A stretch of DNA of 63,347 bases from Lysobacteraceae bacterium (GTDB taxonomy: Bacteria > Pseudomonadota > Gammaproteobacteria > Xanthomonadales > Rhodanobacteraceae), in NCBI GenBank assembly GCA_028866435.1, contig JAGWIC010000004.1:1-63347 (forward strand). Reading direction: 5' to 3'. The notes below the pieces were generated by a model, which ran no database searches, was not told where the DNA came from, and saw only the letters and a program-made list of their open reading frames with translations. Every line of letters begins with the position of its first letter. The stretch's first letter is position 1. The position numbers were made by a program, and so were the translations under genes. Below are positions 15,929-28,435 of the stretch, piece after piece.

Positions 15929-18034
15929 CTATTGCATGCCTGGCAGCTCGCGCAGCTCTTTCAGGCTGGTGTCCAGCCTGCCGCCAAGGTCAAGCGATTG
16001 GAGGCCGAGCAGGGCGGCCTGTGCATCGGCGATGCGCCCCTGCACCACCAGCATGCGTACGAGGGTAATGCGGTAGGCGGGTTCGTTCGGGGCCGTTTTC
16101 ACGGCATCAGCGGTCATGCGCTCGCCCAGTGGGTGGTCGTCCAGCACGTTCCATGCGTAGTCACCGTAGCTGGCAAGCAGGCGCGCACTTGGATCGGGAT
16201 GCGAGAGCGCCGCCAGATAGGCCTGCATCATGCGCTGCTTGGGTAGGTCGCACTGGTGGTCGCGGTTGCACTGGGTCAGCGCACCCAGCGAACTTTCGTC
16301 CTGCACGCCGGGTTTATGGCTTTTCAGCTTGGCGATCATGCTGTCCCACCAGCTGTCTTTCAGCGGCAGGTGCATGCGGGAGTTCATGAAGATCAGTGCC
16401 TGCTCGGGCAGGATGGACGAATCCGGCAATGCCGCGGATTTTTCCAGCGGTGCGTAGGCCAGCCGGGTGAACGGCGACGAGGGATCGTAATGCGAAAAAA
16501 TGATGTATGTCCGGCCCAGCTCGTATTGCGCGCGCGGCGAGCGTGGGGCGCGGCTTGCAAGGTCAGCCGCCAACCGCAGCGGATTGCCCCACGCATAGGC
16601 GGTGAGTGCGGTCAGCATGGTCCAGCACAGCATCAGGCCCGCCAGCAGCACGTGGCGCGGCAGCGCCATCGGGAGGCCGCCAGCCACGACGGCAACCGGT
16701 GCGCCGTCACCCTGCGATGGCAGGGTGGATGAACGTTCGCCGGGCGCGGCCAGCATGGGGACGAGCGCCAACAACAGGCCGAAGCTGGCGAAGTAATTGC
16801 GGTGCTCGTAAATCAGCTCGAGCGGGATGATGGTGCCGGTAAGCAACTGGCATCCAAGAAACAGCGCGATACCCAGGGCCGCCAGTGGTCGGCGGTGACG
16901 CAGCCAGATCATCAGCAGAACCAGTGCGGCAAGAAACACGATGCTGACCAGGGTGGTCCACGGCGCCATCAGCCCTTGCGAAATGCGGAAGTTGTCGTGA
17001 TAGAACGACAGCGCATGGGGTGTCGGCAGCAAGGTCCACACGATGTAGTCGACGATGATGCGTGCCTCGCTGAGCAGCCGCGTACGCAGCGTGAAGTCAC
17101 GCGTGGCCCAGGTCTCGGGGTTGAAAATGCCCGGCAGCAGCCATGCCAGTCCCAGTATCATCGGCAGCACCAGCACCAGCAGGAACAGCGCGATGAGGCG
17201 TCGGTCGCAGCGCCCGCTCGGAGCGGTCTTGGGTGTGTCGCTGGCAACGCAGGCGTCTTGGGGGCGCTGAAAGCCGAACAGTATCCACTCGACTAGCAGG
17301 GCATACAGAGGCAGCATCACCGCCGTCTCCTTCGCCAGGATGCCCACGGCGGTCGGGATGGTGATGCTGACCAGACAGAGGATGAAGCCGCGGTTGCCGG
17401 TCGAAGGGCGTTCCCGGTCGAGCATGCGGCGGCGGCCGGCGACGTAGCCGATCAGCCCGAGCAGGACGAACAGGTTGGCCATGCTCTCCATTCGCTGCAC
17501 GACATACAGCACGCCGGTGAGATTGATCGGCAGCAGCATCCAGCTGGCGGCGACCAGGGCGGCAGTGATGTCGGTCCGGCTTCCCGTAGGAGCGCACCCT
17601 GTGCGCGAAAGTCCTACGTGGATCGAGGATCGATCGCGCACAGGGCGCGCTCCTACGGGGTCCGAACATAGAAGCGCGCGGGTCAGCAGGAAAACCAGCA
17701 ATCCGTTGAGCAGGTGGATGACCAGATTGGTCAGCTTCATCCAGTACGGGTCCAGCCCCGTCGCAAGATAGTTGGCAGCGAAGCTCAACGAGGCCAACGG
17801 GCGCTTGAATTCACTGGAAGGCGACGACAGGGCGGCACGTACCAGTGACGCCACGCTGGCATGTGGTGGCTGCACGCCGTGGTTTTCGACGATGTTGGGA
17901 TAGTCGTCGAACAACCAGCTGCCCGAGAGGCCTGGCCAATACACGGCCAGGGTCACGATTGTTGCGACGAGCAGCAGCCACCAACCGGTGTGGCGTCGGC
18001 CTTGGGCGATTGAGCTGGGGGACTGTTCGATCAT
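15929..18034 (-). CDS. GT-C-type membrane protein with C-terminal TPR-like region, carrying an in-frame REP pair
   Basis: A 701-residue polytopic protein. After the first membrane span it has LFDDYPN (Asp43/Asp44), the loop position where GT-C glycosyltransferases carry catalytic acids, then about ten spans, the conserved IYEHRNYF, and a soluble C-terminal half (from about 470) with TPR-like helices. The layout resembles TMTC-type O-mannosyltransferases and pilin glycosyltransferases such as TfpW. Residues 127-150 are encoded by a REP pair (17586-17656) in the loop after a span; the paralogue upstream lacks this insert. The ATG at 18034 overlaps the paralogue's stop by four bases. Pilin as acceptor is inferred from position. 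Confidence 0.8.
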   Translation of the reverse strand: MIEQSPSSIAQGRRHTGWWLLLVATIVTLAVYWPGLSGSWLFDDYPNIVENHGVQPPHASVASLVRAALSSPSSEFKRPLASLSFAANYLATGLDPYWMKLTNLVIHLLNGLLVFLLTRALLCSDPVGARPVRDRSSIHVGLSRTGCAPTGSRTDITAALVAASWMLLPINLTGVLYVVQRMESMANLFVLLGLIGYVAGRRRMLDRERPSTGNRGFILCLVSITIPTAVGILAKETAVMLPLYALLVEWILFGFQRPQDACVASDTPKTAPSGRCDRRLIALFLLVLVLPMILGLAWLLPGIFNPETWATRDFTLRTRLLSEARIIVDYIVWTLLPTPHALSFYHDNFRISQGLMAPWTTLVSIVFLAALVLLMIWLRHRRPLAALGIALFLGCQLLTGTIIPLELIYEHRNYFASFGLLLALVPMLAAPGERSSTLPSQGDGAPVAVVAGGLPMALPRHVLLAGLMLCWTMLTALTAYAWGNPLRLAADLASRAPRSPRAQYELGRTYIIFSHYDPSSPFTRLAYAPLEKSAALPDSSILPEQALIFMNSRMHLPLKDSWWDSMIAKLKSHKPGVQDESSLGALTQCNRDHQCDLPKQRMMQAYLAALSHPDPSARLLASYGDYAWNVLDDHPLGERMTADAVKTAPNEPAYRITLVRMLVVQGRIADAQAALLGLQSLDLGGRLDTSLKELRELPGMQ
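17586..17656. repeat. BIME inside a coding sequence
   Basis: Inverted REP pair translated in frame as VGARPVRD at one arm and RTGCAPT at the other. One arm has a single base change giving a G-T wobble in the stem (GCGCGC against GTGCGC). Flanking bases CCC and GGG extend the palindrome. Confidence 0.93.
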
Positions 18035-20286
18035 CGAGGGCTGGCAACCTTGGCTTCGGCATCGTGCTGCAGTGTATCGCGCAGGTGGGCGATCTCTCGG
18101 GGCCAGTAATCCTGCCGCCGCAAGACCCAGGCATGCAGCCATGGCATGCCGAGGCCCGGCTTCATTTGTCGACTGCGCACGGCCTCGTAGTGCTGCAGGT
18201 GTGCCAATCCATGGCGCGGGTAACCGGCAGAACCCAGCAGGGCGGCTTGTTCCAGCGCGGCACCCGGTCGCACGTCCTGATCCAGCGCCGCATTGAAATC
18301 ACGCAACGTCGCTGCCGGATCGTGGCGTGCCAGGGCAATGCGACCCTTCAGGTAAAGCAGGTCCTGGCGGCGTCCATCGACCTCGATCAGCCTGGCGTTG
18401 GCCAGGCCGGCATCGAGCAGGCGGTCGAGCGCATCCAGATCGAGCCCGCGGCATTGGCCGGCGACGGCGACGGGGATGCTGCCGTCAAACCAGTGCGTCA
18501 GCAAGCTGCCGGGGTCGCGTGTGTTCGAGATCGCGTAACGTGCCTGCGCAAGATCGTGTGGCCCCAATGCACCCAGCATGCAGTGCGCGCCGATCAGGTT
18601 GAAGGCCAACTGCACCTGGTCGGGTTGGGCACGCAGCAGGGTTTCCAGGCGTGTAATGGCCGGCTGCGGCTGACCGGCGGCCATTTCCAGTAGGGCGGCA
18701 TTGGCCTGTGCGCGCGGCGAGTCGGGGTTGAGCGTGGCCCACAGCTCTCCCTGCTCGTGGGTGTTGCCCCACAACTGTGCGCGGGCGTGGGTCATCAGCG
18801 CCAACCCCAGCAGCAGCACTGCCGTCAGCGCGCCTTTGGCCCAATCCGCGTGTATCACGCCGCCCCGTAGGAGCGCACCCTGTGCGCGACGCTCTTCGGC
18901 CGTATCCAGTTCATCGCGCACAGGGTGCGCTCCTACACAGGTCACGCCCGGCTCTTGTAGGAGCGCGCTCGCGCGCGATGCCTTTGGCCGCGATACTCCG
19001 CAAAGCCATAATGCCAGCGGCCAGAACATCAGCATGGCCGGCAGGTAGTTGCGGTGCTCGTAGTAAAGCTCCAGCGGGATGGTCGAGGATTCCAGCGACT
19101 GCCCGACGAAGTAGAACAGGATCGCCAGTGCGAAGGCCGGCCAGCGTCGACGCAGCGACCACGCGCCGGCGATCAATCCCAGTACCGCCAGCAGGGCAGG
19201 TAGCGTCGTGGCCGGCGACCACAGCGACAGCGAGGCCTTGATCTGGTCGTTGAACAGCCCTGGAGTGAAGGGCCGCGGCAACCACAACAGGTCGAGATAA
19301 TCCATCAGCACCCGCGGTTCGGTCAGCAGCCGCTGGCCCATCGTCCACGGCCGCACCGCCGATACGCCATGCACGAAACCGTTCCACGCCGAGTCCAGCA
19401 GGTAGCCCGCCACCAGTCCCGCCGGCAGCCAGCCGAATACCGCCATTGCCCACGCATACGTCCGCGCCCCCCGTAGGAGCGCGCTTGCGCGCGATCCCGC
19501 GCCTCGCCCCGGTTCTCGTAGGAGCGCACCCTGTGCGCGACTGTTCTGGTCATGGTGGATGCAAAAGGCATCGCGCACGGGGTGCGCTCCTACGGGGGCG
19601 GAGAACGGCTTGGCCGTCGAAGCTCGCAGCAGCACGTATTCGATCACCAGCGCCAGCGCCGGCAACAAGATGCCGTTGGCCTTGCTGAGTACGCCGAGTA
19701 CGGTGCAGCCGCCGAGTCCCAGCGTAATCCAGGTAATGCCCTGTACGGTGCGCCCTCGCCACAGGTCATGGCGCCCACGCAGCCACAGCAGCAAGCCAAG
19801 CAGGGTGAATGTTGCCGGCAGCATCGCTTCGCGCTGCACGATATAAAGCGTGGTGGAAACCAGCAATGGATGCAGCAGCCAGAAAGCAGCCCCCAATACG
19901 GCTGCCATTTCGATCCGGTGTTGCGAGGCCTGCTCAAAGGCATCGAGACCCAGCCGCCGCAGGAGTGCGGCCAGCAGCACGCCGTTGAGCAGGTGCAGGA
20001 TCAGGTTGGTGAGCTTGAATGGGTACGGGTCGGCCGGCCAGTTGCGTGCGTCAAGCAGGAATGTCAGCAGGGTCAGCGGGCGCCCGGTGGGGTCGGCTGT
20101 TCCGGAGGTGATGTAGCGCCAGAACGTGGGCCAAGTGTCGATCGGGCCATTTGCACCCAGCACGGGTAAATTGCCGAAGTCGTCAAACAGGAAGCCGCCG
20201 TGCAAACCTGGGGTACAGGCAATCCAGAACAATGCCATGAGTGCGAACGTTGTAAGCAGCGGCATGGCTGCAGGACTATTGCGCAT
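18031..20286 (-). CDS. GT-C-type membrane protein with TPR-like C-terminus, carrying two in-frame REP clusters
   Basis: A 751-residue paralogue of the next gene downstream: FLFDDFGN after the first span (Asp35/Asp36), KLTNLILHLLNG, LYIVQRE and LYYEHRNYL are shared, followed by a soluble C-terminal region with TPR-like helices (from about residue 510). It is probably an inner-membrane transferase using a polyprenyl-phosphate sugar on the periplasmic side, with the neighbouring pilin as the likely acceptor (inference). REP sequence encodes residues 232-272 and 436-474, both in loops between spans, with no frame loss. It starts 72 bases after the proximal pilin stop, behind a strong terminator, so it may depend on read-through. 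Confidence 0.8.
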   Translation of the reverse strand: MRNSPAAMPLLTTFALMALFWIACTPGLHGGFLFDDFGNLPVLGANGPIDTWPTFWRYITSGTADPTGRPLTLLTFLLDARNWPADPYPFKLTNLILHLLNGVLLAALLRRLGLDAFEQASQHRIEMAAVLGAAFWLLHPLLVSTTLYIVQREAMLPATFTLLGLLLWLRGRHDLWRGRTVQGITWITLGLGGCTVLGVLSKANGILLPALALVIEYVLLRASTAKPFSAPVGAHPVRDAFCIHHDQNSRAQGALLREPGRGAGSRASALLRGARTYAWAMAVFGWLPAGLVAGYLLDSAWNGFVHGVSAVRPWTMGQRLLTEPRVLMDYLDLLWLPRPFTPGLFNDQIKASLSLWSPATTLPALLAVLGLIAGAWSLRRRWPAFALAILFYFVGQSLESSTIPLELYYEHRNYLPAMLMFWPLALWLCGVSRPKASRASALLQEPGVTCVGAHPVRDELDTAEERRAQGALLRGGVIHADWAKGALTAVLLLGLALMTHARAQLWGNTHEQGELWATLNPDSPRAQANAALLEMAAGQPQPAITRLETLLRAQPDQVQLAFNLIGAHCMLGALGPHDLAQARYAISNTRDPGSLLTHWFDGSIPVAVAGQCRGLDLDALDRLLDAGLANARLIEVDGRRQDLLYLKGRIALARHDPAATLRDFNAALDQDVRPGAALEQAALLGSAGYPRHGLAHLQHYEAVRSRQMKPGLGMPWLHAWVLRRQDYWPREIAHLRDTLQHDAEAKVASPR
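18867..18936. repeat. BIME inside a coding sequence
   Basis: Inverted REP pair in frame, read as VGAHPVRD and RAQGALL. The spacer GCTCTTCGGCCGTATCCAG shares its first part with spacer family B. Confidence 0.93.
18957..18980 (+). repeat. Single variant REP unit inside a coding sequence
   Basis: Foot GTAG kept, hairpin changed to GCGCGC/GCGCGC with loop TC. The stem is still perfect although the bases changed on both sides. It lies 20 bases from the adjacent BIME. Confidence 0.85.
19473..19496 (+). repeat. Single variant REP unit inside a coding sequence
   Basis: Same variant as at 18957, with GCGCGC, loop TT and GCGCGC after the GTAG foot; translated in frame on the minus strand as part of SRASALLRG. 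Confidence 0.85.
19518..19593. repeat. BIME inside a coding sequence
   Basis: Inverted REP pair with one changed loop base (CCC for CCT), translated in frame as VGAHPVRD and RAQGALL. Confidence 0.93.
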
Positions 20287-25589: not shown

Positions 25590-25971
25590 CGTAGTCCGCG
25601 GCAGCGAGGATGTCTTCGTCGTGGCGCAACGCATGGTCGTGGAAGCCGCGTGCCCAGCCGATCGGTTTTCGCACGTCCTGTCCGGGTTGCTTGCGTGCCA
25701 GTGACTTGAAGCGGTTCATGACCGTCGAAAGGTCATCGCGCTCACCCAGTGCGATCAGCCCGTGCCAGTGATCCGGCATCAATACCCAGCACAGCGCCTG
25801 TGCATCTCCCCACGTCGGCGGCTCCATCATCAGCCGGCAGGTCGCGCGGGCCAGCTCCGGATCCAGGAAATACGGAAGGCGGCCTGCGGTGACGGTTGTC
25901 AGCAGGTAGATCTGCCCTGGCAGTGAGACACGGCCCTTGCGGAGCGCCTGATGGCCTGCGGTGTACGTCAT
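25426..25971 (-). CDS. REP-associated tyrosine transposase (RAYT, Y1_Tnp family)
   Basis: A 181-residue single-copy transposase of the IS200/IS605-related Y1 type that acts on REP hairpins. It shows SLPGQIYLLTTVTAG, the metal-binding HWH in MPDHWHGLI (68-70) and the nucleophile Tyr127 in DYVIANPVRAGLV, followed by DYPYW. The ATG at 25971 is the family start; an open frame upstream runs back into the REP pair at 26029-26101. Family members normally stop shortly after DYPYWxxxW; here the frame continues about 30 residues antisense to the peptidase gene (152-181), so the tail is probably acquired. All catalytic residues are present, so activity is plausible. Confidence 0.92.
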   Translation of the reverse strand: MTYTAGHQALRKGRVSLPGQIYLLTTVTAGRLPYFLDPELARATCRLMMEPPTWGDAQALCWVLMPDHWHGLIALGERDDLSTVMNRFKSLARKQPGQDVRKPIGWARGFHDHALRHDEDILAAADYVIANPVRAGLVEHVNDYPYWTSLWPSISSTTHSPHRAIARCCAASARSGSRPGR

Positions 25972-26028
25972 GCGCGATATATGCCTGGCCGAAGACGATC
26001 GCACCAGCAGAAAGCGACGACACAACGT

Positions 26029-26101
26029 GTAGGAGCGCACCCTGTGCGCGATGCTCTTCGCCATGTGACAAAAGAGCATCGCGCACAGGGTGCGCTCCTA
26101 C
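26029..26101. repeat. BIME upstream of the RAYT gene, spacer family B
   Basis: Two perfect inverted REP units, 58 bases before the RAYT start codon. The spacer GCTCTTCGCCATGTGAC then AAAAGAGC recurs in the pair at 29481-29554. Confidence 0.95.
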
Positions 26102-26130
26102 AAATGCGTTGGGGCGTGGCGCGGTTCGGT

Positions 26131-27150
26131 TCACAGCCATTTCGAGCGCTTCAGCAGCAGGAAAATGCCGCCGACGACGGTCAGCATCACGACGATCATG
26201 GCCGGATAGGCCCACGGCTGGTTCAGTTCGGGCATGTGGGTGAAGTTCATGCCGTACCAGCTGGTGAGCAGGGTGGGTGCGGCGAGCATGGCGGCCCAGC
26301 CGGCGAGTTTCTTCATCACTTCGTTCTGGCCGTAGCTGACCAGGGCCAGGTTGACGTTGATCGCGGCGGCAAGCATCTCCCGCATGGCGCCGATCGATTC
26401 GTTGACGCGGAATACGTGGTCGTAGACGTCGCGGAAATAGGCGCGCAGTTCGTCCGGGATCAGGTCCGGGTGCAGCCGTACCAGCTGGCTGATGATGTCC
26501 TGCAGCGGGGCCACGGCCAGCCGCAGGCGCATCAGCTCGTGCTGCATGTCGTACAGGCGGCGGATGGTGTCGCGGTTGAAGGTTTCGGCGAAGATCGCCT
26601 GCTCCAGCTGCTGCAGCTCCTCGCGGAAATCCCGGATGATCGGCGACATGTTGTCGACGATGAAGTCGAGCACGCCGTACAGGCCGTAGCTGGGGCCCAT
26701 GGCAAGCAGCTCGGGCGTGTTCTCGCAGCTGCGGCGGGCGGGCGCGTAGGACAGCGAGGCGCCGTGGCGAATGGTGACCAGGTAGCGCGGGCCGAGGAAG
26801 ATGTGCGTCTCGCCGAACGCCAGATGGCCGGCGATCAACTGGGCGGTCTGCACCACCATGAACAGCGAGTCGCCATAGGCCTCGATCTTGGTGCGCTGGT
26901 GGGCGTTGCGCGCGTCTTCGATGGCCAGGTCATGCAGGCCGAACTCGTCCTGCAGTTTTTCCAGCAGCGCTTCGTCCGGCTCGTGCAGGCCGAGCCAGAC
27001 GAAGGTGTCGGGCCTGCCCAGCACCTCGCTGATCGCATCGAGCGTGATGTCGCCGAGGCAGCCGCCATCTTTCCGGTAGGCGATGCAATTGACCACCATC
27101 GGCAGATCTTCGGGCGTCGTCGCGGCGGCAGGCGGGGTGGTCGGGTTCAT
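26131..27150 (-). CDS. corA: Magnesium/cobalt transporter CorA
   Basis: A 339-residue pentameric channel protein. A large cytoplasmic N-terminal domain is followed by two C-terminal membrane spans and the selectivity motif GMN in TSWYGMNFTHMPEL, then a short basic tail (RSKWL). The region IAYRKDGGCLGDITLDAISE matches the usual N-terminal strand pattern. The ATG at 27150 (MNPTTPPAA) is chosen; MVVNC at 27099 is a possible shorter start. It moves Mg2+ and perhaps Co2+ or Ni2+ inward across the inner membrane. It is followed by the BIME next to RAYT. The related efflux-type gene corC lies 1.4 kb upstream on the same strand. Confidence 0.93.
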   Translation of the reverse strand: MNPTTPPAAATTPEDLPMVVNCIAYRKDGGCLGDITLDAISEVLGRPDTFVWLGLHEPDEALLEKLQDEFGLHDLAIEDARNAHQRTKIEAYGDSLFMVVQTAQLIAGHLAFGETHIFLGPRYLVTIRHGASLSYAPARRSCENTPELLAMGPSYGLYGVLDFIVDNMSPIIRDFREELQQLEQAIFAETFNRDTIRRLYDMQHELMRLRLAVAPLQDIISQLVRLHPDLIPDELRAYFRDVYDHVFRVNESIGAMREMLAAAINVNLALVSYGQNEVMKKLAGWAAMLAAPTLLTSWYGMNFTHMPELNQPWAYPAMIVVMLTVVGGIFLLLKRSKWL

Positions 27151-27211
27151 CGCCCCATCATGCCGCGCAGGTGCGGGTGGGGCAATCGCGGGGCGCGGCG
27201 GGGCCGGCCCG

Positions 27212-28435
27212 TCAATGCCGCAGTGGCGGCCCGTCATTCCGCCGCAGGCTCCATGCCAGGGCCAGCCAGCAGGGCAGGGCGAACAGCAGCCATGGCTGGT
27301 TCTGCTGCACGGTGCCGGGCAGCAGGTGCAGTGCCACGGCGATCACCGTCGCGAGCAGTTGCAGGGCGATCACGCCGTTGCTGAAGCGCGATGCGGCGAT
27401 GCCGCGACGCGAGCGCCACAGTGCCGGCAGCAGCAGCAGCGCGAGCGGGTTGAACAGCAGCAGGTTGGCATTGGCCCAGGCGGAATGGTGGGTGGTCAGT
27501 GTCCACAGCACCAGCAGCACCAGCCCGACCAGGGCGGCGGCAACCAGGTACAGCGTGCCCAGCAGCGCGCAACCGGTCGGCCACCAGCGCCGGGCCAGTG
27601 CGATCAGCGCGCCGAGCAGCGCGCCGGCCAGCGCCAGCGGCAGGCGCAGGTCGGGCGCCACCGGCGGCGGAACCTGCAGTCGGTTGGGGGCCACCGCCTG
27701 TTCATCGAGCACCAGCGGCTGCGCGCCGTTGCCACGTTCGACGCGTACCTCGCGCAGCTGCGTCTGCAGCACCTCGGGCAGGAAGCTCTCCTGCCACGCG
27801 TTGAGCGGCTGGTCGGCATACGGGCCCAGACCCAGGTCCAGCACCAGCATCAGCCACGGCTGGGCACTCATCAGCCGTACCGTCTGCTGACGATAGGTCA
27901 TGCCGCCGGGGCGTGCGCTGAGCTGTGCCTTGAGGACGCCGCCCAGCGCCTTGTCCAGTGCGTCGCGCACGCGGGTGGTGCAGTTGTCGACGTAGTAGTC
28001 GTAGTTGTAGCCGGCGTTCTCGGGGCGCAGGTTCCACAGCAGGAAGTCGCGCAGCGCGGCGGCCTGTTCCGGCGTGAACGCGAGGCGCTGGCGGGTGATC
28101 GAGCGCCCGACCTGGACGTAGTAGCCTTCCTCGTCGCCGGTGGGCTCGGCATCCATCAGGTAATGCATGCGGCCGCGCGCGAAGTTCAGGAAGAAGTTCT
28201 TCTCGTTGAAGTCGAACACGCCGTAGTTGAAATTCACCGCCTCGCCGCTGACGGTGTCGCGCAGTTCCAGCGCGTCATGGCCGAAGCGCTCCCAGTAGGT
28301 TTCGCCGGGACCGTAGGTGACCAGCGATACCTCGAGGTTGGCGCCGGGCGCGTTGACGACGCCGGCATGGGCTGGCGGCAGCGTGGCCAGCAACAACAGC
28401 GCGAGCAGCAGTAGGTGGCGACCGATCGTATTCAT
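27212..28435 (-). CDS. DUF4105 (Lnb N-terminal-like) membrane protein
   Basis: A 407-residue protein with a signal peptide (MNTIGRHLLLLALLLLATLPPAHA), then a periplasmic DUF4105 domain with ERFGHDALEL, NFNYGVFDF and the strictly typical YYVDNCTTRVRD containing the candidate catalytic Cys. The C-terminal 150 residues have four or five membrane spans. The domain is related to the N-terminal part of Lnb-type lipoprotein acyltransferases, an enzyme family using a Cys-His pair; whether this protein acts on lipoproteins is unknown. It sits between corA and corC and starts 25 bases from the BIME at 28460. Confidence 0.8.
   Translation of the reverse strand: MNTIGRHLLLLALLLLATLPPAHAGVVNAPGANLEVSLVTYGPGETYWERFGHDALELRDTVSGEAVNFNYGVFDFNEKNFFLNFARGRMHYLMDAEPTGDEEGYYVQVGRSITRQRLAFTPEQAAALRDFLLWNLRPENAGYNYDYYVDNCTTRVRDALDKALGGVLKAQLSARPGGMTYRQQTVRLMSAQPWLMLVLDLGLGPYADQPLNAWQESFLPEVLQTQLREVRVERGNGAQPLVLDEQAVAPNRLQVPPPVAPDLRLPLALAGALLGALIALARRWWPTGCALLGTLYLVAAALVGLVLLVLWTLTTHHSAWANANLLLFNPLALLLLPALWRSRRGIAASRFSNGVIALQLLATVIAVALHLLPGTVQQNQPWLLFALPCWLALAWSLRRNDGPPLRH

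Follow-up and report, generated by a model that had tools for sequence, protein, structure and literature searches.

Disordered loops in a few proteins of the soil bacterium Rhodanobacter appear to be permissive sites that are repeatedly filled or overwritten by the REPs resident in each genome and translated with the surrounding protein, a reading to which we give a probability of roughly 0.8. REPs are short mobile palindromes whose usual place is between genes. The reading draws on features that can be seen in the DNA: the in-frame position of the REPs, the open frames around them, selection on the host genes, insert lengths that keep the frame, the match between the family in a loop and the families of its genome, and a near-identical start position for different families. 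The window (the whole stretch of 63,347 nucleotides that was analysed) holds two membrane protein genes, P1 and P2, for which in-frame GTAG-type REPs had been proposed from the sequence, and the arm coordinates confirm them (Table 1). The more unusual fact, which the original prediction did not see, is that different REP families occupy one spot in different species.

In-frame REPs in two membrane protein genes

The host genome is Rhodanobacter; it is labelled G000 and has a size of 3.08 Mb in an assembly that is 89% complete. The named locus nearest to the window belongs to the MAG FW021_bin.58 (G161), with a P2 protein identity of 82%. P1 and P2 overlap on the minus strand and their frames are open throughout. 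P1 combines a GT-C-like membrane domain with a TPR-like C-terminal part, and P2 is 28-29% identical to it. The AlphaFold models of P1 and P2 have pLDDT values of 81.9 and 81.2, respectively. No GT-C match was found in Pfam or NCBIfam, with Pfam giving P1 a sub-threshold TPR only, and Foldseek alone returned no match for P1 at E<=0.001; the fold statement is therefore based on a VIA-align comparison of the P1 model with OST/STT3, Pmt4, AglB, and ArnT chains (Z 16-18, rmsd 4.2-6.0). The predicted fold of P1 is the GT-C membrane fold, which is an assignment of fold and not of activity, and the protein is perhaps a pilin or cell-surface glycosyltransferase. The genes nearby code for two type IV pilins, a DegT aminotransferase, and one protein each of the PMT_2, flippase-like polysaccharide-synthesis, and PglD-like types, a setting in which pilin or a surface polymer may be what P1 and P2 glycosylate.

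Table 1. Host genes and REPs of the P1/P2 region, in window positions.
Feature	Position	Strand	Remarks
P1, first membrane protein gene	15929..18034	-	open frame; putative start codon
Family-A REP dimer, P1 loop 1	17586..17656		arms 17586-17608 and 17634-17656; read VGARPVRD...SRTGCAPT
P2, second membrane protein gene, paralogue of P1	18031..20286	-	open frame
Family-A REP dimer, second P2 cluster	18867..18936		read VGAHPVRD...RAQGALL
Family-C REP singlet (GTAGGAGCGCGCTCGCGCGCGA), second P2 cluster, beside the dimer	18957..18978	+	read SRASALL
Family-C REP singlet, first P2 cluster	19473..19494	+	read SRASALL
Family-A REP dimer, first P2 cluster	19518..19593		arms 19518-19540 and 19571-19593; read VGAHPVRD...RAQGALL

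The family-A arm (GTAGGAGCGCACCCTGTGCGCGA, 23 bases) has 74 copies at <=1 mismatch in the genome and none when read backwards, so the arm match is not due to chance. It has the GTAG foot followed by an imperfect palindrome, in many copies, that defines the GTAG REP superfamily; in family B of the relatives the foot is GTGG in place of GTAG. The arms also pair in inverted orientation: the fetched stretches and the window together contain 39 family-A dimers, each 62-78 bases long, a form that resembles the many-copy inverted REP pairs known as REPINs. As had been noted for the REP arm, a stop codon occurs in one of six frames, and this holds for each of the five arm families. A further REP dimer lies at 26029-26101 in the window, near the 5' end of the open reading frame 25951-27384. 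The coding test did not class this dimer as intragenic, and the actual start of the frame may therefore be downstream.

The P1 insert comprises residues 127-150 (24 residues, numbered from Met) and the two P2 clusters span about residues 232-272 and 436-474, in agreement with the original prediction. The search for arms returned none in the paralogue's first loop, where the first insert had been described as missing. Orthologues were aligned in a family-level set and a genus-level set. The REP-free orthologues lack the inserted residues, for example LLRSDPSGRHPR against LLCSDP-insert-GSRTD, which upholds the reading of these residues as inserts, and the P1 loop is short and without them in several Rhodanobacter species. 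The REPs thus lie wholly inside open frames and are missing from shorter homologues, as expected for intragenic, protein-coding REPs. The models support a mostly disordered location: pLDDT falls below 50 at P1 residues 131-150 and at P2 residues 226-258, 448-458, and 470-478, mostly between predicted helices. The earlier statement that every insert is in a loop between membrane spans therefore holds for the most part, the exception being the singlet at P2 residues 259-272, which reaches into the beginning of a predicted helix.

REP-bearing loops in the genome and the genus

The original prediction concerned the two glycosyltransferase-like genes, but the insertions are not peculiar to them. 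A pattern search of the genome gave 89 family-A-like arms at <=2 mismatches. Six of 51 scanned clusters (42 in fetched stretches and nine in the window) were called intragenic and in frame by a home-made codon-usage test: three in P1 and P2 and one each in polA, recD, and a helicase gene that we take from its sequence to be hrpA-like. The 51 clusters are not every REP, as the scan is blind near contig ends, merged arms imperfectly, skips genes broken by REPs, and missed at least one dimer (L178). The identity of polA and recD was confirmed by family search; their products, P0003 and P0004, score above the NCBIfam cut-offs of the DNA polymerase I models NF004397 and TIGR00593 and of the RecD model TIGR01447, respectively, with P0004 below the cut-off of NF008127. 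We considered a unit of insertion with one constant length, a multiple of three, and rejected it, as the dimers occupy all three length classes. A weak flank preference was seen around the REPs, with C before and G after.

A study by Di Nocera et al. (2013, PMC3733652) describes in its main text REPs inside the genes of many bacteria, Xanthomonas and Stenotrophomonas among them, and names DNA polymerase I, RecBCD proteins, and helicases as targets. The authors called a mutator role tempting and suggested flexible linkers or loops as the sites. The polA, recD, and hrpA-like genes struck here match these kinds of targets, and one could suppose that the insertions were selected for altering the activity of replication and repair proteins. 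We consider this very unlikely, as half of the in-frame clusters of the genome (3/6) are in two membrane glycosyltransferase-like genes, the same linkers of REP-free orthologues contain other sequence that varies in length, and the occupants tend to track abundance in the genome.

Across the genus, 133 orthologue or best-hit genes (310 kb) were searched with five arm patterns at <=4 mismatches, which gave 109 REP arms and none with the reversed patterns. The P1 set contains 39 genes, with one genome counted in two pieces, and the P2 set contains 34, of which at least seven are low-scoring best hits (206-262 bits), probably fragments or paralogues. For polA and recD, which have a match in 45 and 44 genomes, respectively, the reading covers the 30 genomes with loci returned. 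Seven loops hold 101 of the 109 arms: P1 residues 128-144, 260-263, and 434-446, P2 residues 230-265 and 437-470, polA residues 287-304, and recD residues 227-245. The remaining eight are in one broken P2 gene (G170). Outside the genus, arms at <=4 mismatches were found in 1/20 P2 loci and 3/21 P1 loci, counted by locus. A REP insert suspected in G081 from match lengths was not borne out, as its loci contain no REP arm.

The occupants of these loops differ between species. The polA loop holds family A in nine of the 30 genomes and family B in five, and several REP families also occur in the recD and P1 loops. In G161 (L069) the P1 loop has a family-A dimer identical to that of the window at 45/46 arm positions, with only 15/24 aligned positions matching in the spacer, and the same two P2 loops hold another REP mix. 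The P1 and P2 loops of G170 contain another REP family (GTGGGAGCGACTTCAGTCGCGA). In seven genomes (L248-L253, L181) the hrpA-like gene carries a family-A dimer at a roughly constant site; these genomes were found through their REP, so that no frequency follows. Two side observations concern the same loops. The fourth P1 loop of G161 (L142) has a family-A dimer in another open frame (RSAPCAR...AHRVRSY), and where other species have REPs, the polA linker of G093 (L197) and G171 (L213) has a palindrome of another kind (CCTCTCCC...GGGAGAGG type), which is clear in G093.

The REP-bearing genes are under purifying selection outside the inserts, as judged from sequence comparison. Between G000 and G161, dN/dS outside the inserts (our own NG86 script) was 0.18 for P1, 0.16 for P2, 0.21 for polA, and 0.35 for recD, and over the pairs tested it ranged from 0.10 to 0.35. 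The insert peptides are probably made, and they are presumably neutral. If the genes were pseudogenes, or the frames artefacts, one would point to P2 of G170 (L141; L077:5851-6700), where about eight units, each with a family-B arm, are repeated in tandem within the second loop and the frame is lost across them; an N run inside this array makes an assembly error possible. Open frames and dN/dS speak against this for the genes as a whole. No stop occurs within any P1 match among the matches listed, length changes inside the insert keep the frame, and P0003 and P0004 pass the family cut-offs given above, so this explanation has almost no probability left.

Different REP families at near-identical positions

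Different families begin at nearly the same nucleotide. In polA the arm starts 15 nt after a conserved motif in family A (8/9) and 16 nt after it in family B (4/5), both exceptions being shifted by 30 nt; in recD it starts 51 nt (A 4/6, D 2/3) or 52 nt (B 2/3) after the motif. Starts are equal or one nucleotide apart between families for 12/14 polA copies and 8/12 recD arm sets. Spacer length falls into a single class modulo three at each site (polA family A 9/9, recD family A 6/6, P1 loop 1 family A 6/6, and the hrpA-like gene 7/7), whereas the 33 dimers not called intragenic split 11/14/8 over the three classes.

The occupant of a loop is the commoner of families A and B in its genome in 37/39 cases (Fisher p 1.4e-8, uncorrected for relatedness), the two exceptions being G136 and G164. 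This comparison covers families A and B only, with C2 and D left out and one tie (G105) dropped. Two of the 37 matches (G165 and G178) are circular, the genome count being the loop pair itself, and without them the figure is 35/37. In both genomes (L131 and L145, respectively) only 1+1 family-A arms are present genome-wide at <=1 mismatch, and P1 loop 1 holds such a pair. By count this would be the last of its family, either kept after family A died out elsewhere or arrived with the gene.

It could be argued that each loop received one ancient insertion, which was inherited by all species and later diverged into apparent families. The same gene, position, and usually frame are indeed seen in many species, and the genus-wide counts ignore shared ancestry: at least G018/G147 in polA (spacer 26/30, same altered foot and arm) and G161/G175 in recD (spacer 22/27) look co-inherited. 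As the occupant follows the REP population of its own genome, a single ancient insertion per loop is a poor explanation. Many arms also match the family consensus exactly while the surrounding genes are ~78-85% identical (G000 vs G161), close relatives differ (G170 with B against G161 with A, and G157 with B against G165 and G178 with A), and what families A, B, and D have in common is limited to the foot and a few bases more. We therefore regard common descent of all occupants as unlikely.

Parsimony on a tree of 41 genomes required at least 12 state changes for P1 loop 1, four for P1 loop 4, 11 for polA, and nine for recD. The tree was built quickly and leaves 12 of its 38 inner branches open, the recD states cover 27 genomes, the empty state includes decayed copies, and the changes counted do not separate gains from losses. 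Decayed REPs were detected in 5/126 REP-free loops at p<=0.01 and in 12/126 at p<=0.05 (codon shuffles). The idea that REP remnants are the source of all loop sequence is mostly unsupported by the stricter count; most REP-free loops have no trace of an older REP, and the loops therefore exist without REPs, which are guests in them.

In the reading that we prefer, REP dimers of the resident families would enter a few proteins in frame, at disordered loops or linkers where an extra 20-40 residues would be harmless, and would then persist and be translated within a protein that still works. The loops would act as recurrent docking sites that are filled, lost, decayed, or overwritten across Rhodanobacter species, with the occupant usually belonging to a family abundant in that genome. 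The arrival of a new family may be a fresh insertion at a preferred spot, or recombination may overwrite the REP already in place, and both routes fit. A stronger version holds that the loops are true docking sites at which REP families are swapped at the same nucleotide, whether through site-specific insertion beside a fixed target or through recombination that overwrites the earlier REP, so that unrelated proteins (those of polA, recD, the hrpA-like helicase gene, and the two glycosyltransferase-like genes) are rewritten with REP turnover. We hold this version tentatively, at somewhat less than even odds.

RAYTs mobilise REPINs, and a transposase source for REPs is expected; the elements described here differ in that they are inserts inside genes. 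One Y1-transposase (Y1_Tnp) open reading frame was found in the 89%-complete assembly of G000. Its 3.2-kb locus contains no family-A arm at <=6 mismatches, and the sole match among the searched families is one family-D-like arm at five mismatches. A Y1 transposase was not detected in nine of 45 genomes, including the REP-rich G018, and no target duplication was identified. The original prediction linked these REPs to RAYTs, and a RAYT-type transposase is a candidate for having moved them.

Relation to known elements

Protein-coding REPs are an already known kind of insertion, including in the same bacterial order (PMC3733652), and the original prediction that they are undescribed for this group stands only for Rhodanobacter itself: no description of intragenic REPs in this genus was found in the open-access literature searched by genus and phenomenon. 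Its interpretation was thus partly supported. The GTAG/CGTC REPs in the main text of PMC3733652 share with ours the GTAG foot, the palindromic arm, dimers and clusters wholly inside genes, the kinds of targets, and the order; there, dimers add 20-30 residues and some clusters 43-82. The main text also gives one case of different REPs at about the same recB site in two Xanthomonas species, and its supplement may hold more same-site cases. Relative to that text, the differences here are the genus, the two GT-C-like genes, and a genus-wide family turnover that tends to track the dominant family of each genome. This turnover in the same loop seems to be the new part.

The likeness to the palindromic elements of Rickettsia that had been suggested is one of analogy. 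RPEs are also palindromic repeats translated in frame and are solvent-exposed in models (PMC3767692), but they have other sequences, whereas the Rhodanobacter arms are recognised as REPs; RPE fusions are summarised in a 2024 review. The text of PMC3767692, on Rickettsia japonica, reports differing RPE-4/6/7 in orthologues at nearby sites, including recB-family and DNA polymerase III genes, and leaned to common origin and later divergence without excluding hotspots. Unlike the RPEs in that account, families A and B of Rhodanobacter are separate repeats that can reach hundreds of copies in one genome, and this speaks for replacement or hotspot insertion.

Many species of Rhodanobacter have been sequenced, so that REP-free, filled, overwritten, and decayed states of one loop can be compared, which bears on the question of hotspots or common origin in Rickettsia. 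The results also weaken the idea that repair genes are struck because insertion alters repair. Mobile palindromes would also lengthen core proteins, DNA polymerase I among them, that remain under purifying selection elsewhere in their sequence.
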